A stretch of DNA of 64,000 nucleotides, taken from the NCBI GenBank assembly GCA_030148505.1, contig JASBTI010000041.1:1-64000 (forward strand), read 5' to 3'. The stretch is from Rhodanobacter sp. Lineage in GTDB: Bacteria; Pseudomonadota; Gammaproteobacteria; Xanthomonadales; Rhodanobacteraceae. The stretch's first letter is position 1. The number at the start of each line of letters is the position of its first letter. The notes under the pieces were generated by a model. It did not search any database and was not told the DNA's origin. It saw nothing but the letters and a program-made list of their open reading frames with translations. The position numbers were made by a program, and so were the translations under genes. Shown here one piece after another: positions 9,769-23,283 of this stretch.

Positions 9769-10068
9769 ATGACAAAACCCAAACAAATGGACGGGCTTCA
9801 GGAAAGTGAAGAAGCGCACCGGCGCAAGGTGGTGACCCGGTTGGCCCGCATTGAGGGGCAGGTACGCGGCATTCAGAACATGATTACCGACAACTGCTCC
9901 TGCGAGCAGGTCGCGTTGCAACTCACCGCGGCCAGGCGTGCCCTGGACAAGGCGTTCTACGAAATGATCGCCTGCAGTCTCAATAGCCACATTGAGGCCG
10001 CCGGCGACATCACTGAGATTCGCGCCTCGACCAAGGATCTGGCGCGATTGCTGGCCAAGTTCGGTTGA
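9769..10068 (+). CDS. CsoR/RcnR/FrmR-family (DUF156) transcriptional repressor
   Basis: A 99-residue all-helical regulator. The family block RRKVVTRLARIEGQVRGIQNMI spans residues 18-39, and CSCEQVALQLTAARRALDKA follows. Family members bind DNA as tetramers and release it on sensing Cu(I), Ni/Co, formaldehyde or persulfide. Here Cys45 sits at the conserved first-ligand position, with Cys43 just before it. The CsoR His is replaced by Ser70 and the second ligand Cys by His74; an extra Cys69 lies beside them. The copper set is therefore incomplete and a thiol/persulfide sensor is more likely, as the sox locus suggests. It converges on the last gene of the sox operon with an 8-bp gap, and a palindromic operator lies upstream. 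Confidence 0.88.
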   Translation: MTKPKQMDGLQESEEAHRRKVVTRLARIEGQVRGIQNMITDNCSCEQVALQLTAARRALDKAFYEMIACSLNSHIEAAGDITEIRASTKDLARLLAKFG

Positions 10069-14814: not shown

Positions 14815-15126
14815 TCAGCTGACTACAGCGTCATCCGTGCGGCTCTCTCCCGCGGTATCTTTCCAGGTAATCGTTACCTTGTCGCCCTTGGCCGCACCCT
14901 TGAAGCGGAAGGCAAGAAACGGGTTCTTGGACACTGCGGGCCCCCAGTCGGCGGTCAGTACGTCTTTGCCCTTGCACGTGGCTTTTACGGTTTCGATGTA
15001 ATGCGCCGGAATCAGCTTGCCGCTGGAGTCCTTGCGCAAGCCGGTCTCCATGGGGTGTGCCATCAGCACTTTTACCTCAACCGTATCACCTGTGAGCCGC
15101 GCGCGAATTCGCATCGGATCTGCCAT
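14815..15126 (-). CDS. soxZ: SoxZ, sulfur-carrier scaffold protein
   Basis: SoxZ (103 residues) forms the SoxYZ heterodimer and presents the SoxY sulfur arm to the other Sox enzymes. It is an immunoglobulin-like beta protein with no signal peptide of its own and is exported bound to SoxY. Recognisable blocks are RIRARLTGDTVEVKVLMAHPMETG, PAHYIETV and FRFKGAAKGDKVTITWKDTAG. It starts 26 bp after soxY. Confidence 0.95.
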   Translation of the reverse strand: MADPMRIRARLTGDTVEVKVLMAHPMETGLRKDSSGKLIPAHYIETVKATCKGKDVLTADWGPAVSKNPFLAFRFKGAAKGDKVTITWKDTAGESRTDDAVVS

Positions 15127-15152: not shown

Positions 15153-15638
15153 TCAGCCGCCGCAGCCGCCAAGGGTGACCTTGACCAGCTTGTCGGTATA
15201 AAAGAAGCCCTTGTCGGTTTGTACCAGGGCGCGCAGATTGGACGTTTCAGCGATCTTCACCCGGGTCATCACGTAGGGCTCGGTGCCCTCGGGGAAGTGG
15301 AACGCCGCGGAAAGTGCGTGCGGGTTCTTTTCCGACACGATCGCTATCATGCGCGTACCCGGCAGCTTGCTCTGGATCACGACCGGAACCACGGCGCCAT
15401 TCTCGGCGATCGAGGGCGCCTGAAGCATGATGTCGGAGGACTTTACGGCCTTGTCGCCGCCCATGGCCTTGACGACGGAGTCCAGCGTGTGGCCCTGGAA
15501 TTCCTTGCGATGGTCTGTCGGTGCGAGCGGGCTGGTTGCGGCCGCCGCGAGGCGGGGCAGCAGACCAGTAGTCGCGACGAACAGGACGGCAGTACCGCTG
15601 GCACTTGCCTGCAGGAATGCCCTTCTAGACATTTTCAT
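15153..15638 (-). CDS. soxY: SoxY, covalent sulfur carrier
   Basis: SoxY holds the sulfur substrate on a C-terminal cysteine during thiosulfate oxidation. It has 161 residues and a Tat signal (SRRAFLQASASG). The carrier arm is intact: the protein ends in LGGCGG, with Cys159 third from the end. The body is an Ig-like fold (VVPVVIQSKLPGTRMIAIVSEKNP). Paired with soxZ immediately downstream. Confidence 0.96.
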   Translation of the reverse strand: MKMSRRAFLQASASGTAVLFVATTGLLPRLAAAATSPLAPTDHRKEFQGHTLDSVVKAMGGDKAVKSSDIMLQAPSIAENGAVVPVVIQSKLPGTRMIAIVSEKNPHALSAAFHFPEGTEPYVMTRVKIAETSNLRALVQTDKGFFYTDKLVKVTLGGCGG

Positions 15639-15714: not shown

Positions 15715-16686
15715 CTACTTTTTGGCTTTTTGCGTCAGGATCCATTGAACCATGGTCGACAGATCGGCATCGGAAAGGTCGGGATGTGGCGGCATCGGAA
15801 TCGATCCCCACACGCCGGCACCGCCGTTTCGAATCTTGTGTATCAGATGTTTTGAAGCCCCCGGATTGCCCTGGTATTTCTTCGCGACGTCGCGAAAGGA
15901 AGGTCCGAGAATTTTGTGGTCGAGCGCATGGCAAGCAGTGCAGCCGGATGCCGTCATCACCTTCGGCATTGCCGAAGCGGCTGACGTCTTGCCGGCCACG
16001 GCGCTGCCGGGCAGGTCGGCCTTCGGTGGCGCCTGTTCGTTCATGGTCTCCAGGCCGCGGAAGTTGTCCCGGATATCGCCGTAGAGATTCTTGGTGAAAC
16101 CTGCAGGGAGGCTGCCGGTGATCTTCACCACTTTCTCGCAGTTCTTCATGCAGGCCGTATTGTGAACGTCCGGTTTGCCATGCACGCTCATCATTCCCGG
16201 ATAGGGTTTGAGCGCATTGGCGTTGGGCATCTTGACCTTGGGCAATGTCTGCCTGTTGGCGACGAAGTCGGATGGCACGATGTCGTTGAGATTGAGCACA
16301 TAGGCTGCGACTGCGTACACCTGGTCAGCCGTCAACGACTTTGAGTGCGGAAAAGGCATTGCGCGGTTGATGTAGTCAAACAACGTGGTCGCGTGGTTGA
16401 GCTTCGCTTTGATGCCGGTGAGAGCCAGATATTCGTTGCTTTCACCGAACGAACCGTGACAACTTGCGCAGTTCGCATCGTAGATCTCGCCGCCTTGCGC
16501 TACCGAGCCCTGACCCTCAGGCAAACCCTTCCCATCAGGGCGTACATCGATGTTCCAGCCAGCGATTTCGGCTGCGGTTGCCTTACGGCCGAGGTGGTAG
16601 TTTTTCTCCCGGGCCTGCGCCGGCAGCGCAATAACAAGCAGCAGAGCGACGGCCAGAGCGCCGACCAATCGATCAGACTTCGACAT
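15715..16686 (-). CDS. soxD: SoxD, di-haem cytochrome c subunit of sulfane dehydrogenase
   Basis: SoxD accepts electrons from SoxC during oxidation of the SoxY-bound sulfane sulfur. It is 323 residues with a signal peptide (LLVIALPAQA). Two haem motifs are present: CASCH (Cys73, Cys76, His77) and CTACH (Cys249, Cys252, His253). Met ligand candidates are AMPFPHS after the first and SIPMPPHP after the second. The C-terminal domain looks like a class I cytochrome c. The ATG at 16686 lies inside the end of soxC (14-bp overlap), so the subunits are coupled. Confidence 0.93.
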   Translation of the reverse strand: MSKSDRLVGALAVALLLVIALPAQAREKNYHLGRKATAAEIAGWNIDVRPDGKGLPEGQGSVAQGGEIYDANCASCHGSFGESNEYLALTGIKAKLNHATTLFDYINRAMPFPHSKSLTADQVYAVAAYVLNLNDIVPSDFVANRQTLPKVKMPNANALKPYPGMMSVHGKPDVHNTACMKNCEKVVKITGSLPAGFTKNLYGDIRDNFRGLETMNEQAPPKADLPGSAVAGKTSAASAMPKVMTASGCTACHALDHKILGPSFRDVAKKYQGNPGASKHLIHKIRNGGAGVWGSIPMPPHPDLSDADLSTMVQWILTQKAKK

Positions 16687-18007
16687 TGTGCACCTTCCCT
16701 TCGGCATCGACGAGCCACGTCTGAATGGCATTGTTGTGGTAGATCGACCGCGTGCCGCGGACTTCGCGCAACTGGCGCATCTTCGGCTGCACATAACCGG
16801 TCGAGTCAATACAACGGCTCTGCAGCATCGCCGGGTTGCCATCCCAGTTCCAATCAATGCGGAAGCGGGTAAGCGCCTTGTCGAGCACGGGCGTCTGCAG
16901 CTGTGCCGTGCGCCAGTTCTTGCCGCCATCGGTGGAGACATCCACGCGCTTGATATGGCCGCGTCCGGACCAGGCGAATCCGGTGATCTGGTAGTAACCA
17001 CCCTTGTCGAGCAGATGCTGCCCTCCAGATGGCGAGGTGATGACCGACTTTGCCTCTTGGATCCAGGTGTACTGGCGGATAGTGCCATCGGGCATCAAGT
17101 CACTGTATTGCAGCGACTCCTCGCGGGTATCCCAGGGCTTGTCGCCGACCTTGATACGGCGTAGCCACTTGACGTTCGACACGCCCTGGACTCCCGGTAC
17201 GACCAGGCGCAGCGGGTAGCCCTGCTCCGGGCGCAGCATTTCGCCATTCTGTCCGTACGCGACGATTACGTCGTCCAGTGCGAAGGAGAGCGGAATGGTG
17301 CGGGTCAGCCCTGCACCGTCGGCGCCTTCGGCGAGCAGGTATTTCGCTTTCTTCGTATCAAAGCCGACGTCTTCGAGCAAGGTCGACAGGGGCACGCCGG
17401 TCCACTCGGCACAGCTGAGCATGCCATGCGTATATTGCACCGTGGGCACCGATGGATTGGCCCATTCCATCGCCGAGTTGGCACCGCACTCGATGAAGTG
17501 GATGCGCGAGACCGAGGGAAACCGGAGGATGTCCTCCATGGTGTAGATTTTGGGTTCACGCACCAACCCGTGCAGCATCAATCGATGCTCGTACGGATTG
17601 ATGTCCGGCCGCCCATTGTGGTCGCGCTCGAAGTGCAAGCCGTTTGGCGTGATGATGCCGAACAGGTTCTGCAGCGGTGCGAAGGCCACCGACGACTGGG
17701 TGGTAGTGGTCAGCCCCGGGCTGCTCCGTCGAATGATGTTTTTCTCGAACAAAGACGGGACGCCATACGGATTTGCTCCGACCGGCTTGCCGAGAAATTG
17801 CGACCAGGGCGGTACGTTCGGCGGCAGGTGTGCCGGATTGGCCGGTGCCCCCTTCGCGTCGACTGCATTCAGCGAACTACCGGCGAACACAGCTGCACCA
17901 CCGGCCAGCAGGCCGCCCAATGCGCGACGTCGTGACTTGCCCGCAGCGCTCAGAAAGTTCTCAGGTGCCGAAATAATGCGGCCTGGTTTTGGGTCGTGCT
18001 GGTCCAT
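16673..18007 (-). CDS. soxC: SoxC, molybdenum sulfane dehydrogenase subunit
   Basis: SoxC is a sulfite-oxidase-family molybdoenzyme that, with SoxD, oxidises the sulfane sulfur on SoxY by six electrons. The 444-residue protein has a Tat signal (KSRRRALGGLLAGGAAV). The Mo-pterin domain has conserved Cys174 in FIECGANSAMEW and the blocks GMLSCAEWTGVPL and YGQNGEMLRPEQGYPLRL. The dimerisation domain includes ITGFAWSGRGHIKRVDVS and DGGKNW. The presence of soxCD predicts oxidation to sulfate without periplasmic sulfur globules. Confidence 0.95.
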   Translation of the reverse strand: MDQHDPKPGRIISAPENFLSAAGKSRRRALGGLLAGGAAVFAGSSLNAVDAKGAPANPAHLPPNVPPWSQFLGKPVGANPYGVPSLFEKNIIRRSSPGLTTTTQSSVAFAPLQNLFGIITPNGLHFERDHNGRPDINPYEHRLMLHGLVREPKIYTMEDILRFPSVSRIHFIECGANSAMEWANPSVPTVQYTHGMLSCAEWTGVPLSTLLEDVGFDTKKAKYLLAEGADGAGLTRTIPLSFALDDVIVAYGQNGEMLRPEQGYPLRLVVPGVQGVSNVKWLRRIKVGDKPWDTREESLQYSDLMPDGTIRQYTWIQEAKSVITSPSGGQHLLDKGGYYQITGFAWSGRGHIKRVDVSTDGGKNWRTAQLQTPVLDKALTRFRIDWNWDGNPAMLQSRCIDSTGYVQPKMRQLREVRGTRSIYHNNAIQTWLVDAEGKVHNVEV

Positions 18008-18108: not shown

Positions 18109-19074
18109 TCAGGGGAGTCCGACGACCGGACGCTTCTCGGCCGTCCACTCATACATCGAACCGTCGTAGAGACGCGTATTCGGGTTCTTCATTATTTCGC
18201 TGAGCACGAACCAGGCGCCGGACGCCAGATGGCCGGTATTGCAATAGGTGATGCTCGGCTTGTGGGCATTGATGTCCAGGTGCCTGAAGATCGAGGTGTA
18301 TTCGGCGGGCGTCAGGTAGTGCATACCGCCTTTGGCTGATGTGCGGAGGTCAGGCGGCAGGTCGACCGCGCCCTTGATATGGCCGGCGCTGCCCACGATC
18401 GGCTTCTTCGTAAGGCCGATATAGAACGGCATGGGCCTTGCGTCGACGATCTGCACCCCGGTGCCGATGGCCTTGGCTACATCTCGGCTGCTGGCGACGT
18501 ATTTCATCCGAGCTGCGCTTGCGGTCCAGTTGCCCTTGCCTTCAGCTGCCGCGGCGGTGTTGTAGGGCAGTCCCTGCTCAAGCCAGCCGGTCGTGCCGCC
18601 ATTGAGGATCGCGAGATGGTTGTCGCCATATACCTTCATGGACCAGTACACCCGTGCGGCCATATCCAGGTCGGCACCACTTGCACCCTCGGGCACGATT
18701 ACCGTCGGCCGGCCGGCTTTGACGCCGATGTTGCGCATCAGATCCTGAAAAGCCATCTGATCAGGCAGCATCCATTTGACTTCATGACCATCGACCATGC
18801 GCGGCACGCGCACCTTTCCGAAGTCGAGCAGCAAGGCCCCAGGAATGTGACCACCGAACCCGGACAGCGACTTCACTCCCTTTTCGGTGGTGAATGCGGG
18901 TGTCTTGGTAAAGGACGCCGGATCGTGGCGGACGTCGATGACATTGACCTCCGCGCGGTGTTGTGACAGCCATTGTGAACTCACCAGCGGACCCGGTAGC
19001 GTAACCGCCTGGGCCGCAGCTGATCCAAGCAGGAGCAGTGTGGCCACTAAAGTAGTCCTGATCTGCGTTTTCAT
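18109..19074 (-). CDS. Periplasmic tandem-rhodanese sulfurtransferase
   Basis: A 321-residue protein with two rhodanese domains, as in thiosulfate sulfurtransferases and 3-mercaptopyruvate sulfurtransferases, plus a signal peptide (TTLVATLLLLGSAAAQA). The first domain (from VNVIDVRHDPASF) is inactive-looking. The second (from VQIVDARP) carries the persulfide Cys278 in the loop YCNTGHLAS. That loop differs from the CRxGx[R/T] of classical rhodaneses and is common in sox-linked copies. It may move sulfane sulfur to or from the Sox system. Start ATG 19074, about 100 bp before soxC in the same direction. Confidence 0.9.
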   Translation of the reverse strand: MKTQIRTTLVATLLLLGSAAAQAVTLPGPLVSSQWLSQHRAEVNVIDVRHDPASFTKTPAFTTEKGVKSLSGFGGHIPGALLLDFGKVRVPRMVDGHEVKWMLPDQMAFQDLMRNIGVKAGRPTVIVPEGASGADLDMAARVYWSMKVYGDNHLAILNGGTTGWLEQGLPYNTAAAAEGKGNWTASAARMKYVASSRDVAKAIGTGVQIVDARPMPFYIGLTKKPIVGSAGHIKGAVDLPPDLRTSAKGGMHYLTPAEYTSIFRHLDINAHKPSITYCNTGHLASGAWFVLSEIMKNPNTRLYDGSMYEWTAEKRPVVGLP

Positions 19075-19108
19075 TTCCTTCCCCTCCAACCCCGTCCTCG
19101 CGGACAAA

Positions 19109-19846
19109 TTAGTGAATTAGATGTTCAAATACAGTGAGCTGCTGTTCGACCGACACGTGACACTGGCTGATGACATGCATGCGTCGATCTTCAAACAGGC
19201 CGGGACGGCGTCCGCCGGCAAGCCGGGCTCCCATCCGGCGGTCGCGGTGTCTCAACAATTCGGCAATCTGTGGTGCAAACACACCGAGTTGCGCGCGCAA
19301 CCAGCGCTCCACCGTCCGTGCGCCGGTATCGGCGGTATTTGCGATGTTTTCGGCTAATGCGATCAAGGTCTCGGCCGGTAGCCAGGTTTCGTCGGTAACC
19401 CAGCGGTTGGTGGTGAACAAGCGTTGCGGCATGCCGCGCGCGTCGACGCCAATCGCCGCCAGGTGGGCGTAGCATGGCTTGCCCGTGGCATCGTTGCCGA
19501 GCTGGGCAAACAGATGAAAATGCCCGTGTTCTTCCGCGGTCATGCCAGGTGTGTCATGCGAGTGGTAGTAGTAATGGAGGACACCACGGGCGCCATCGAG
19601 CATGCTGGCGTCTTCAGCCTGATACGCATGCCATGTACGAGGCGTCTCGCCACGGCCGACGACTGCAGACAGCGGGAAATCCCCCGCATCGACGAACGCG
19701 CACAGGCAATCGACCAACGCACTGGCCGCCGCTTGCGCGCGTTCGAGTTCCGGTCTGTCGAGCCTTTGAAGGCACGCTGCGATTCGCGCCTGTGGAAAAC
19801 GCAGGCGCGAATTATCGACCGGAATGTGCTGGAGGACTGCAGACAC
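19109..19846 (-). CDS. Conserved-looking protein of unknown function in the sox operon
   Basis: A 245-residue protein without signal peptide or membrane segment, so probably cytoplasmic. It is His-rich in the middle: VLHYYYHSHDTP and EEHGHFHLFAQLG near residues 90-115. The second half is helical and ends in RHRDRRMGARLAGGRRPGLFEDRRMHVISQCHV. The clustered histidines could bind a metal. I do not recognise a characterised family, and an ordinary esterase or dioxygenase motif is absent. It sits between the Cys-repeat protein gene (12 bp upstream) and the rhodanese gene (34 bp downstream), so it is almost certainly co-transcribed with the sox genes. Confidence 0.75.
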   Translation of the reverse strand: MSAVLQHIPVDNSRLRFPQARIAACLQRLDRPELERAQAAASALVDCLCAFVDAGDFPLSAVVGRGETPRTWHAYQAEDASMLDGARGVLHYYYHSHDTPGMTAEEHGHFHLFAQLGNDATGKPCYAHLAAIGVDARGMPQRLFTTNRWVTDETWLPAETLIALAENIANTADTGARTVERWLRAQLGVFAPQIAELLRHRDRRMGARLAGGRRPGLFEDRRMHVISQCHVSVEQQLTVFEHLIH

Positions 19847-19857
19847 GCTTCACTATC

Positions 19858-20205
19858 TCAAGAACATTTGCGAGCCGGAGCACACGGATTCTTTGGCCCG
19901 TTGCAGTTCTTATCGGCCTTTTTTGTCCTCGGCGCCTGCTTTGGCGCGCAAGGATTGCTGGGCCGGGCTTTCTGCGGAGCACAGGGATTGTTGGACCTGG
20001 TCGCAGGCCGGGAGGGCGCACAGGGATTGTTGGATTTGGCGGCCGGTCTGGAAGGTGCACAGGGGTTGTTCTGTGCATGTGCTATCGACACGCCACTGAG
20101 TGGCGCCAAGGCGGCCGGTAGCGGGGCCATTGCAGCCAGTGCCAAGGTGGCGGCTGAAAGCTTGGCCGCCAGCGGCCCAGTACGTTTTTTAGCGACAGGG
20201 TTCAT
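19858..20205 (-). CDS. Small exported NPCAP-repeat protein
   Basis: A 115-residue protein with a long signal peptide ending near IAHA-QNN (residue 44). The mature 70 residues contain five NPCAP units (Cys49, 62, 75, 86 and 108), plus Cys101 in KNCNGPK and Cys114 at the C-terminus. The rest is Pro, Ala, Arg, Lys and Ser: basic and without hydrophobic core, hence probably disordered. The first three repeats are a 13-residue period (N-N-P-C-A-P-S-R-P-A...). Seven regularly spaced thiols in the periplasm of a sulfur oxidiser suggest binding of metal, persulfide or polysulfide, but this is inference. It is transcribed with the YedE transporter genes 31 bp upstream. Confidence 0.8.
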   Translation of the reverse strand: MNPVAKKRTGPLAAKLSAATLALAAMAPLPAALAPLSGVSIAHAQNNPCAPSRPAAKSNNPCAPSRPATRSNNPCAPQKARPSNPCAPKQAPRTKKADKNCNGPKNPCAPARKCS

Positions 20206-20236
20206 CAGGTATCTCCTCGATTGTTCCAGGATTTTG

Positions 20237-20814
20237 TCAGTCGGCGCAGGTGATCGCTGCAGAAGTCCCGTTGCGACGGGTGAACCACCAGACCGCGACT
20301 GCAACGCCTGCCAGCAGCATCAGTACTGCCCATGCGGGAAGGCCCAGAAGCTGGCCAAGGGTTTGTGCCTGCGGACCCGCGGCCGCATTCATCAGCGGTG
20401 TGATCGGGGTATAGATGCCGGCGAAGGCTACTACCCCGAGAATCAACCCGACAAAAAAGACCATGCCGTCGATGCGCCCGGCAGCCGCGCCAACGACGGA
20501 CGTTCCTGGGCAATACCCGCCAAGCCCCATGCCAACGCCGATCAATGCGCCTCCGAGCAGGGTTGCCCAGAGGTAGGTCGTGGGGATGAAGATGTCAGAC
20601 GTATGCATGTATCCGGCCAGTTCGAGAACGTACAACCCCCCGCAGCGACGAGAATCGCCGTGAACATCACGTTAAAAACAGTCCAGTCCTGCAACCGCAG
20701 CTGGGCGGTAAGGCGACAGCCATTGCCGAGCCCCCCGCGTTGCAGCACGTAGCCGAAGAGTACGCCACACACCAGGCCGGAAACCGGGCCGGTCCATTCG
20801 ATGGGAAAGGTCAT
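20237..20814 (-). pseudogene. YeeE/YedE-family transporter half, frameshifted
   Basis: Read as one gene this is a YeeE/YedE (TsuA-like) membrane protein of about 192 residues. The N-terminal part starts MTFPIEWTGPVSGLVCGVLFG (20814) and reads to VAAGG; the C-terminal part resumes as YVLELAGYMHTSDIF in another frame at about 20635. The C-terminal part contains the conserved GYCPGTSVVG segment. The break is at a run of six G (minus strand; 20636-20641), and one extra G would restore a single frame; the length (578 nt) is one short of a multiple of three. Either a real mutation, a sequencing error or slippage. The start overlaps the stop of the neighbouring YedE gene by ATGA. Such paired half-transporters import thiosulfate or other sulfur compounds. 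Confidence 0.8.
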
Positions 20815-21323
20815 TTCCACATCCTCCGTGTCAACAGGCCGGTGATCAGCCCGGCACCAAAGAAACCGATCAGAAAGACGAAGCCTGCCGTCGCCAGCGT
20901 TGCAGAACCAGAAAGTCCAAGCCCACTGGTGCATCCCGCAGAAACCCGAGCGCCAAAGCCGGACAGCACGCCGGCAATCAGGGCCAACGATAGACGCCCC
21001 ATGCTCTTGATGCGGGGTGGCCCTTCAATGCGAACATGCAGGTGGCCGGACCACCAGGCGGCCGCCAGTGCGCCCAGTGCCACCCCGAGGACCTCCCAGA
21101 TAATCCAGGAATTGAGCGGGTTTCGCCCATTTTCGACCATCCAGCCGAGATAGCCATTGGCTTGGGTTGCGGTGGGTGCTACCACATTCGACGTGGCGGC
21201 GGCGATGGCTGTAGGCGCTCCGGACGCACCTAGTCCGTGACCCGTCATCACGAAGGTCAACAGCAGCACCAGGCCGAGCACGGCCCCAGCCAGGTGCGCA
21301 TTCCAGATTGGGCGCTGCTTCAT
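20811..21323 (-). CDS. YeeE/YedE-family membrane protein (putative sulfur-compound transporter)
   Basis: A 170-residue inner-membrane protein with four to five hydrophobic helices. It has the family motif GFGARVSAGCTSGLGLSG near residue 125, where the conserved Cys is thought to contact the sulfur substrate in the thiosulfate transporter TsuA. The N-terminus has an extra loop (residues 30-65) before a second helix. With the next gene it forms a two-gene transporter, usual in Xanthomonadales. It is the first gene of the sulfur operon and is preceded by a possible CsoR-type operator at 21374. Confidence 0.88.
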   Translation of the reverse strand: MKQRPIWNAHLAGAVLGLVLLLTFVMTGHGLGASGAPTAIAAATSNVVAPTATQANGYLGWMVENGRNPLNSWIIWEVLGVALGALAAAWWSGHLHVRIEGPPRIKSMGRLSLALIAGVLSGFGARVSAGCTSGLGLSGSATLATAGFVFLIGFFGAGLITGLLTRRMWK

Positions 21324-21373
21324 GTTTGGAGACTCCCTGGCAACCGTCGGCAGGCGACGATGGACGTTATTGA

Positions 21374-21391
21374 CTATACCCCTATAGGAAC
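21374..21391. promoter_or_regulatory. CsoR-type operator-like element before the sulfur operon
   Basis: The inverted repeat CTATA-CCCC-TATAG (21374-21387) is embedded in ATACC-N6-GG, matching the half-site and spacing of the palindrome at 9455-9482. It lies about 50 bp upstream of the first gene of the sox operon. A CsoR-family repressor encoded at 9769 is the natural candidate to bind it. The match to the right half-site is weak. Confidence 0.45.
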
Positions 21392-21480
21392 GAAAGCTCT
21401 GGAGGATGCCGTGGGATCGGCGCTCGGTTTTGGTGGGAGATTAGGGGCAGCACGAGTGTCTGGGGGCATGGAGCGGAAGT

Positions 21481-21642
21481 GGTGAGGCCGTACCTGGCGT
21501 GCAACCGCACCACGGTTTCGCCGGCGTAGCCCAGCGTTGATTTATCCGCGCCGAACGCTACCGAGGCAATATTCCGTTCAGCGCCTCGGCAGTACGGTCC
21601 ATCGGCATGATCGTCGGCCTCGGGCGGAAAGCCTTTGCAGCT
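21481..21642 (-). pseudogene. Relic of a second metF
   Basis: Reading the minus strand gives about 50 codons without stop that match the N-terminus of MetF: FPPEADD (compare FFPPKTDE), then ASVAFGADKSTLGYAGETV (compare ASVTFGAGGSTLSYTGDTV) and VRLHARYG. A stretch of about 13 residues between the two blocks is missing and nothing after residue 66 of MetF is left. No start codon is suitable. It lies downstream of ahcY on the same strand but beyond its terminator. ahcY-metF operons are common in this order, so this looks like the remains of the operon partner, its function now supplied by the metF at 7003. Confidence 0.8.
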
Positions 21643-21741
21643 GAGTCGTGGGACGCTGCTGCTGGGGCTGTTGATATATCCCCGTCTGCGATGGTTCAGT
21701 GGTGGGCGTATTTCAGCCGAGCATGCCAGCGGTCCACTGAC

Positions 21742-21775
21742 ATAAAGAAGGACGCATTGCAGCGTCCTTCTTTAT
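21742..21775 (-). terminator. Terminator downstream of ahcY
   Basis: A 14-bp perfect stem ATAAAGAAGGACGC / GCGTCCTTCTTTAT with a 6-base loop lies 65 bp past the ahcY stop. On the minus strand the 3' arm ends in TTCTTTAT, giving a short U-rich end. The same structure can work on the other strand. Confidence 0.8.
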
Positions 21776-21840
21776 CGTTTTCCAAGTGCATGGCAGATTT
21801 TGTGTGGGTACGCCGTCTGCAGCGAGGAGGGCAGTAGCGA

Positions 21841-23283
21841 TCAGTAGCGGTAATGCTCCGGCTTGTACGGGCCTTCGACCGGCACGCCGAGGTACTTGGC
21901 TTGCTCGGCACTGAGCGTAGTCAGCTTGACGCCTATCTTCTCCAGGTGCAGGCGCGCCACTTCCTCATCGAGCTTCTTCGGCAGGATGTAGACCTTGTTT
22001 TCGTACTTGTCCTTGTTCGCCCACAGCTCGATCTGCGCCAGTGTCTGGTTGGCGAACGAGTTGGACATCACGAAGCTCGGATGCCCGGTGGCGCAACCCA
22101 GGTTGACCAGGCGTCCTTCGGCCAGCAGGAACATCGCGTGGCCGTCGGGGAACACGTACTTGTCCACCTGCGGCTTGATGTTGATCTTCTCGACGCCGGC
22201 CATGGTGTTCAGCGCATCGACCTGGATCTCGTTGTCGAAATGGCCGATGTTGCAGACGATGGCCTGGTCCTTCATAGCCTTCAGGTGGTCGAGCGTCAGC
22301 ACGTCCTTGTTGCCCGTGGTGGTGACATAGATGTCACCGCGGCCCAGCGTACTTTCGACGGTGTTCACCTCGAAACCTTCCATTGCCGCCTGCAGCGCAT
22401 TGATCGGGTCGATCTCGGTGACCACCACGCGCGAGCCATAAGCACGCAACGAGTGGGCGCAGCCCTTGCCGACATCGCCGTAACCGCAGACCACGGCCAC
22501 CTTGCCGGCCAGCATCACGTCCATCGCGCGCTTCAGGCCATCGGCCAGCGACTCGCGGCAGCCGTACAGGTTGTCGAACTTGCTCTTGGTGACTGAATCG
22601 TTGACGTTGATCGCCGGGACCAGCAGTTTGCCGGCTTCGGCCAGTTGGTACAGGCGGTGCACGCCGGTGGTGGTCTCCTCGGAGACGCCCTTCCAGTCCT
22701 TGACCACGGTGTGCCAGAAACCCGGGCGCTCCTTGTGCACGCGCTTGAGCAGGTTCTTGATTACCTGCTCCTCGTGCGAGGAAGCCTTCTCGTTGACCCA
22801 GTCCGAACCGTTCTCCAGCTCGTAACCGTTGTGGATCAGCAAGGTGACGTCGCCACCGTCGTCGACCACCATCTGCGGACCGAGGAAGCCGCCCTTGCCA
22901 TCGGGGAAGCTCAGCGCTTGCAGGGTACAGTCCCAGTATTCCTCCAGCGTCTCGCCCTTCCAGGCGAATACCGGCGTGCCGGTGGCGGCGATGGCGGCAG
23001 CGGCGTGGTCCTGGGTCGAGAAGATGTTGCACGAGGCCCAGCGCACGTCGGCGCCGATGTCCTTAAGCGTTTCGATCAGCACGGCGGTCTGGATCGTCAT
23101 GTGCAGCGAGCCGGTCACGCGCACGCCCTTAAGCGGCTGGGTGGTGGCGTATTTGCGGCGGATCGACATCAGGCCCGGCATTTCCGGCTCGGCGATGTCC
23201 AGTTCCTTGCGGCCCCAGTCGGCCAGCGACAGGTCGGCAACTTTGTAGTCGTGGGCAACAGTTTCTTTGTTGACAGCGTTCAT
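21841..23283 (-). CDS. ahcY: S-adenosyl-L-homocysteine hydrolase
   Basis: This NAD-dependent enzyme splits S-adenosylhomocysteine into adenosine and homocysteine, removing the product inhibitor of methyltransferases. It has 480 residues, typical of the longer bacterial form with an insert around residue 150. Motifs are [46 protein letters not shown], the NAD-binding [15 protein letters not shown], and the C-terminal PEHYRY with the NAD-contacting Lys-Tyr. The start is ATG 23283 with GGAG ten bases upstream. A SAH riboswitch lies in the leader, so expression should rise when the substrate accumulates. Confidence 0.97.

Follow-up and report, generated by a model that had tools for sequence, protein, structure and literature searches.

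An exported NPCAP-repeat protein in a Rhodanobacter sox cluster is paired with a DUF6969 protein, its candidate maturation partner

The window, as we call the whole 64,000-nucleotide stretch of DNA that was analysed, carries on its minus strand a sox cluster in which a small gene for an exported protein with NPCAP repeats is embedded. Read along that strand, the order is two YeeE halves, the NPCAP gene, a gene for a DUF6969 protein, a rhodanese gene, soxC, a cytochrome gene in the soxD position, soxY and soxZ, and past soxZ it continues with a DsrE-family gene, soxA, soxX, soxB and a SoxH-related hydrolase whose match lies below the cut-off. The genes around the NPCAP protein are as follows.

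20811..21323, minus strand: YeeE/YedE half-transporter, PmpA-like half (PF04143 positions 176-307 of 310)
20237..20635, minus strand: YeeE/YedE half-transporter, PmpB-like half (PF04143 positions 41-153 of 310)
19858..20205, minus strand: NPCAP-repeat exported protein, 115 aa (translated ORF)
19109..19846, minus strand: DUF6969 protein (PF22308), 245 aa, no signal peptide by eye, proposed maturation partner (161.5 bits against a curated cut-off of 27)
18109..19107, minus strand: rhodanese with two PF00581 stretches (Pfam) and an apparent signal peptide (signal peptide and CNTGHLA loop by eye)
16673..18007, minus strand: SoxC (TIGR04555, 620.5 bits)
15715 to about 16700, minus strand: c-type cytochrome in the soxD position (general cytochrome c matches only, below cut-off)
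15153-15638, minus strand: SoxY (profile match)
14815-15126, minus strand: SoxZ (profile match)

Counted from the starts in the ORF list, the gap measures 31 nt between YeeE and NPCAP, 11 nt between NPCAP and DUF6969 and 1 nt between DUF6969 and rhodanese, so the stretch from the second YeeE half to the rhodanese looks like one transcript; a promoter scan of 19700-21900 returned no promoter-like site on the coding strand. The first-pass annotation had placed the gene between YeeE/YedE transporter genes and the rhodanese-soxCD genes. The transporter side of this placement holds, the neighbours there being two half-length genes that match opposite halves of PF04143, whereas on the other side the DUF6969 gene (19109-19846) separates the NPCAP gene from the rhodanese. 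At the far end of the sox cluster, and divergent from it, lies a CsoR/RcnR/FrmR-like regulator (9769-10068, plus strand; every match below cut-off), which could be a persulfide or copper sensor for the sox operon.

Translation of the NPCAP gene bears out the earlier description of its product: five NPCAP units, seven cysteines, a signal peptide and a basic composition, with a 13-residue period in the first three units. The protein has a mature part of 71 residues, runs from MNPVAKK to RKCS and comprises the following parts.

20213..20218, minus strand: GAGGAG ribosome-binding-like site, 7 nt ahead of the ATG (read from sequence)
20074..20205, minus strand: signal peptide, residues 1-44 (cleavage after AHA by eye)
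20053..20067, minus strand: NPCAP unit 1, residues 47-51
20014..20028, minus strand: NPCAP unit 2, residues 60-64
19975..19989, minus strand: NPCAP unit 3, residues 73-77
19942..19956, minus strand: NPCAP unit 4, residues 84-88
19876..19890, minus strand: NPCAP unit 5, residues 106-110

The units follow one another at spacings of 13, 13, 11 and 22 residues, and the cysteines are residues 49, 62, 75, 86, 101, 108 and 114. Downstream of the AHA-Q cleavage site, which was placed by eye (the signal peptide as such being called by a simple hydrophobicity rule and by inspection), the mature part holds 14 Lys and Arg against one Asp or Glu, and its five NPC tripeptides were reached in none of 200,000 shuffles of that part. 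Compared with its nearest relative (G019, 85% identical), from which the protein differs by one 13-residue unit, the gene shows 41 synonymous against 15 non-synonymous codon differences; it is thus a real gene, and one under purifying selection. Loss of the cysteine positions among close relatives had been named beforehand as a finding that would count against a thiol-based function; in these relatives the repeat cysteines are kept and it is the number of units that varies.

Relatives of the NPCAP protein are rare, occurring in 3 of 45 genomes of the same genus (the window's own counted) and in 8 of 233 genomes of the family, with three weak matches among these eight dropped. The weak matches L006-L008 of the NPCAP search, dropped as chance, contain no ORF with two NPC. 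A search of plasmids with the protein gave no match, and the protein itself matched no Pfam family, no NCBIfam family and no PDB sequence. The first-pass annotation knew of no characterised protein of this form, a statement that has to be amended: according to the part of PMC7677010 available, CdeC, a cysteine-rich exosporium protein of Clostridioides difficile, has an NPC repeat of six units, although CdeC is a spore-coat morphogenetic protein from a different setting and is likened here by its described repeat alone, not by aligned sequence. Among the matches listed in our literature search, NPC-repeat papers concerned mostly aquaporins, plus CdeC.

Our literature search found no paper naming “DUF6969” or “PF22308”, the family of the gene immediately downstream. 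We aligned 46 DUF6969 proteins, in all of which Y94, H95, H97, E106, H107, G108, H109, H111, F113, H128, G138, W149 and V150 (window numbering) are invariant, with the following stretches carrying the His/Glu set.

19508..19567, minus strand: DUF6969 residues 94-113 (YHSH...EHGHFHLF), core of the invariant His/Glu set (alignment)
19463..19465, minus strand: DUF6969 His128, invariant in 46 of 46 (alignment)

A second alignment of 38 proteins, which overlaps the first and adds 15 new ones, retained all the matching His and Glu residues except H107. In an AF2 model with a pLDDT of 90.3, H95, H109/H111 and H128 lie on three strands (90-96, 108-118 and 124-134, respectively) and H97 just beyond the first; strand alternation would place H109 and H111 on one face, and the predicted arrangement of the His/Glu set resembles a metal site. 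A signal-like hydrophobic stretch was present in none of the 60 DUF6969 relatives scored (of 65), which makes DUF6969 most likely a cytosolic protein that acts before its partner is exported. Genomes encoding DUF6969 amount to 30 of 369 in the class sample, 15 of 230 in the family sample (14 above cut-off) and 20 of 398 in the phylum sample, the window genome being part of all three; the family was absent from the 14 control genomes, and tblastn on plasmids returned 168 records with it.

The gene pair of the window proved to be one instance of a recurrent arrangement. We assembled 66 DUF6969 loci, consisting of the window, L009-L014 from the NPCAP searches, 39 of 40 fetched regions and 20 loci of the phylum sample; one locus (L099, genome G021) had been excluded before counting, as it was under the DUF6969 cut-off. 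A locus was scored as paired if an ORF on the DUF6969 strand, no longer than 230 aa, had both a signal-like hydrophobic stretch and an xxC tripeptide that recurs, and if its stop lay between 900 nt before and 100 nt after the start of the DUF6969 domain. This rule, drawn up after the first loci had been seen, was satisfied at 38 of 45 loci besides the window, whereas none of 155 other genes from these loci satisfied it. The 20-locus phylum sample serves as a separate replication: ten loci pass, and seven more have an NPC-rich ORF within 1.5 kb. Overall, 49 of the 66 loci are paired, window included, and 11 more either lose part of the repeat gene to a contig end or encode an NPC-rich protein within 1.5 kb. 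The contig end accounts for the failure of L010, L011 and L065; NPC repeats occur only as tails on a CxxCH protein at L061, L120, L123 and L125; at L121, L122 and L124 the NPC gene is divergent from DUF6969 and 1.3-1.5 kb away; and at L127 it lies downstream. No Cys-repeat gene was found at the remaining six loci (L067, L068, L087, L119, L126 and L129). Contig limits apply at two of them, L126 beginning 262 nt from a contig end and L068 lying on a contig of 3.6 kb, and the other four have room for such a gene; DUF6969 may therefore have other jobs as well.

The association can also be seen starting from the repeats. An NPC profile matched 14 of the 369 class genomes, and 11 of these 14 carry DUF6969, against 30 of 369 overall; after removal of the five genomes that were the source of the profile, DUF6969 is present in 6 of 9 NPC-matching genomes against 25 of 364 (p 4e-6), and the association persists at p 4e-4 when two same-genus genomes are dropped as well. 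NPC-repeat proteins without DUF6969 occur in 3 of the 369 genomes. We further inspected 4 of the 168 plasmid records, none of which is among the 66 loci. On pSymB of Sinorhizobium meliloti 1021 (NC_003078), where tblastn matched DUF6969 at 1090746-1091219, the order is rhodanese, YeeE, APC-repeat gene, DUF6969, and Ciceribacter thiooxidans has the same order with APC/NPC repeats; on plasmid plas1 of Burkholderia glumae (L165) a KC-repeat gene precedes DUF6969 and arsenosugar genes follow it; and at the Azospirillum plasmid locus (L164) no Cys repeat was seen beside DUF6969. Taken together, the pairing of DUF6969 with Cys-repeat genes is well supported, and such pairs are found in alpha-, beta- and gammaproteobacteria.

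A few individual loci deserve mention. Two genomes lack a DUF6969 match: in one, the ORF after an NPC-tailed cytochrome looks on inspection like a formylglycine-generating (FGE-sulfatase) protein (L147, genome G293), and in the other an exported helix-hairpin-helix protein, ComEA-like by eye, bears an NPC-repeat tail (L152, genome G308). Genome G378 has one contig (C69) ending in YeeE and NPC repeats, with the NPC match extending to 19993 of 20050, and another (C54) at whose end the series NPC, DUF6969, rhodanese begins; the assembly is seemingly broken inside the NPC repeats, and repeat arrays may be under-counted in draft genomes.

The proteins encoded upstream of DUF6969 fall into several repeat types, namely NPCAP, NPCAAK-like, acidic S/NPC[S/G]L, KCGAKC and CGCC/CAAT. 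Repeat classes and YeeE labels, both assigned by hand, were placed on a maximum-likelihood tree of 66 DUF6969 proteins, a quick one that has weak support at 20 of its 63 inner branches and includes some long rows. On this tree the repeat type requires 11 changes, compared with 40.8 in shuffles, and as few were reached in 0 of 200 shuffles. Repeat type thus tracks the DUF6969 tree, on which the NPCAP clade comprises 15 rows with a support of 87. Order is conserved too: the succession YeeE, YeeE, repeat gene, DUF6969, rhodanese is kept in six relatives (L009-L014) as far as their contigs extend. Reading of the sequences suggests that the repeat proteins of L014, L097 and L098 are lipoproteins. 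In the acidic type, an Asp-His motif (IDHTRHRLP and variants) follows the membrane segment. The acidic/APC proteins of L076-L086, L088, L138, L163 and L166 retain this Asp-His pair directly past the membrane segment, where it is possibly a recognition or metal site.

We then considered the link to sulfur metabolism. Among the 15 NPCAP-clade rows, 13 have a Sulf_transp/YeeE gene beside DUF6969 and two (L010 and L011) break off at a contig end, leaving 13 of 13 testable loci with the transporter; the earlier note had stated that its reading would suffer if homologues lay mostly away from sulfur genes, and for this clade the reverse holds. Sulf_transp is likewise found within 3 kb at 12 of 13 acidic-repeat loci, and a rhodanese homologue at 10 of 12 checked. 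Of the 64 loci from whole genomes, 26 have Sulf_transp within 3 kb of DUF6969, and of the 38 without it within 3 kb on the same contig, 32 still have a Cys-repeat gene; other repeat types are found with bufferin enzymes, NPC-tailed CxxCH proteins or arsenosugar genes. As the majority of DUF6969 loci lack a sulfur transporter within 3 kb, a sulfur cargo would be clade-specific at best. The annotation’s proposal of a periplasmic, thiol-rich sulfur buffer therefore keeps its footing in the export, the thiols and the setting of sox, sulfur-transporter and rhodanese genes, but it is not the whole story, since the constant partner across relatives is DUF6969 and not the sulfur genes.

Two known systems bear on this setting. 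SoxYZ is a periplasmic carrier of sulfur on Cys, and SoxY and SoxZ are encoded in the same cluster as the NPCAP protein; in contrast, the NPCAP protein matches neither the SoxY nor the SoxZ profile and has several repeat cysteines, where SoxYZ has one Cys on a C-terminal arm. As to the transporter, PmpA and PmpB are the halves of a PF04143-type transporter (PMC11582611, available part), and YedE1E2 is reported to import zero-valent sulfur (PMC10812762, available part). The two half-length genes of the window match the N- and C-terminal halves of PF04143 as PmpA and PmpB do, and on this similarity the pair is of the PmpAB/YedE1E2 type and predicted to import sulfur; unlike the window, the available parts of PMC11582611 and PMC10812762 mention neither a Cys-repeat protein nor DUF6969.

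The closest described parallel is the class of bufferins, oxazolins and captophorins, that is, MNIO-modified, Sec-exported Cys RiPPs (of the Buf_EGKCG type, for example) for which one class criterion is 5-thiooxazole on Cys and copper binding. Both cases feature a small Sec-exported protein with repeated cysteines beside a cytosolic protein with a metal site (presumed for DUF6969), both include lipoprotein-like and cytochrome-fused versions, and some DUF6969 loci contain MNIO, DoxX and DUF2063, which together form the bufferin core set (PMC12452194, in the part available). Conversely, the motif of the window protein is NPC, not EGKCG, and neither “DUF6969” nor “NPC” occurs in the main text of PMC12452194 and PMC13097082. 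When the window was compared with the class feature by feature, the NPCAP protein was found to be a Sec-exported small Cys-motif precursor. It matched no precursor model (DUF2282 and others, with Pfam and NCBIfam models searched and no Buf2/EGKCG profiles among them), the only MNIO (PF05114) match of the genome lies on contig C6 and the window on C3, and DUF2063 and DoxX were absent from the ten window genes scanned with Pfam; we therefore do not count the NPCAP protein as a bufferin.

Beyond the window, 5 of 64 loci have MNIO within 3 kb of DUF6969, and at one of the five the match is a fragment at a contig edge that scores below cut-off. Three of these MNIO genes were tested (those of L063, L092 and L133), and all score above the NF050167 MNIO_BufB cut-off; at L092 and L133 DUF6969 is accompanied by MNIO, DUF2063 and DoxX, and at L063 by MNIO and DoxX. 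No MNIO match was obtained in 17 of 62 DUF6969 genomes (8 of 43 and 9 of 19), or in 15 of the 52 with a completeness of 90% or more and a contamination of 5% or less. Given these genomes, and the location of the window’s only MNIO on another contig, it appears that DUF6969 does not need MNIO in order to serve Cys-repeat proteins. NPC-tailed CxxCH proteins are present at 8 of 65 loci (L060, L061, L070, L120, L123, L125, L127 and L128), and three scanned neighbour ORFs match the SoxA/TsdA cytochrome family. This recurrent fusion of a CxxCH (c-type cytochrome-like) part with NPC repeats near DUF6969 parallels the Buf1-cytochrome fusions described, along with lipoprotein versions of bufferins, in the available part of PMC12452194.

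Our preferred reading, to which we give an even chance, is that DUF6969, as a cytosolic metalloprotein, has the NPCAP protein for its substrate and would mature or load the repeat cysteines before export, much as MNIO does for bufferins, and that the product would be a sulfane sulfur carrier or buffer acting with the rhodanese and YeeE. The NPCAP precursor would be made with its signal peptide and bound in the cytosol by DUF6969, which, as maturase or chaperone, may modify the repeat cysteines or load them with metal or sulfur; Sec would export the protein after this step. In the periplasm, the basic, unfolded polythiol (or a modified form of it) would exchange sulfane sulfur with the exported rhodanese and deliver it to the PmpAB/YedE1E2-type half-size YeeE transporter beside the Sox system, serving in the window’s clade as a sulfane sulfur carrier or buffer with several sites. 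The window product probably handles sulfane sulfur, and the chance that DUF6969 represents a new class of maturases is a real one. The fullest form of our reading, in which DUF6969 would be a new, MNIO-independent class of Cys-modifying maturases for a large family of Sec-exported xPC/KC-repeat proteins, and one branch of the products a dedicated, post-translationally matured polypeptide carrier of zero-valent sulfur feeding YeeE/PmpAB, is a tentative proposal that we regard as a serious possibility rather than as the expected outcome.

Several alternatives have to be set against this. The NPCAP protein might be an unmodified thiol buffer whose Cys persulfides move between rhodanese, SoxYZ and YeeE, with DUF6969 as a cytosolic sulfur accessory and no maturase involved. 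The transporter at 13 of 13 testable NPCAP-clade and 12 of 13 acidic-repeat loci, the rhodanese homologue at 10 of 12 of the latter, the exported rhodanese that adjoins in the window and the pSymB order of S. meliloti 1021 would all fit such a buffer; yet 32 of the 38 DUF6969 loci without Sulf_transp within 3 kb have a Cys-repeat gene, and the co-clustering of MNIO, DUF2063 and DoxX at some loci points to peptide maturation, so we consider this explanation unlikely, though a genuine contender. Slightly less probable to us, and hence doubtful, is a bufferin-like buffer of copper or another metal, in which the repeats chelate the metal, DUF6969 is a metallochaperone or sensor and the sox setting reflects copper stress or cuproenzymes. 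This would be in keeping with the likeness to bufferins and captophorins (PMC12452194 and PMC13097082, as far as available), the parallel between NPC-tailed CxxCH proteins and the Buf1-cytochrome fusions of PMC12452194, the HMA, DoxX and Pyr_redox families among neighbours of the KCGAKC type and the CsoR/RcnR/FrmR-like regulator beyond the sox genes (all matches below cut-off), but the ten window genes scanned around NPCAP include no metal-resistance family and the NPCAP clade accompanies sulfur transporters.

It is, finally, extremely improbable that we are dealing with a low-complexity exported protein of no specific function that came to lie near sox genes by chance. The basic, disordered-looking composition and the presence in just 3 of 45 same-genus genomes, the window’s included, might have suggested so, but this is already contradicted by the purifying selection on the gene, by the gene order kept in six relatives as far as contigs extend and by the pairing of Cys-repeat genes with DUF6969 in many families.

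Whichever reading applies, an orphan family, DUF6969, and a set of overlooked low-complexity proteins are joined here into one testable system, which includes Sinorhizobium meliloti 1021, and the NPC/APC repeats and the His/Glu set of DUF6969 offer clear targets for mutagenesis. The pairing suggests a hitherto undescribed route to cysteine-based carriers of sulfur or metal. If DUF6969 modifies cysteines, RiPP biology would gain an extra maturase class, and if the product carries sulfane sulfur, it would offer an explanation of how zero-valent sulfur in the periplasm gets to importers of the YeeE type.

Two further gene neighbourhoods are of note: the plas1 set of B. glumae also holds an MTA phosphorylase, two arsenosugar glycosyltransferases, a thioredoxin and CcdA, and at L133 a phosphorylase-family gene lies beside MNIO and DUF6969.
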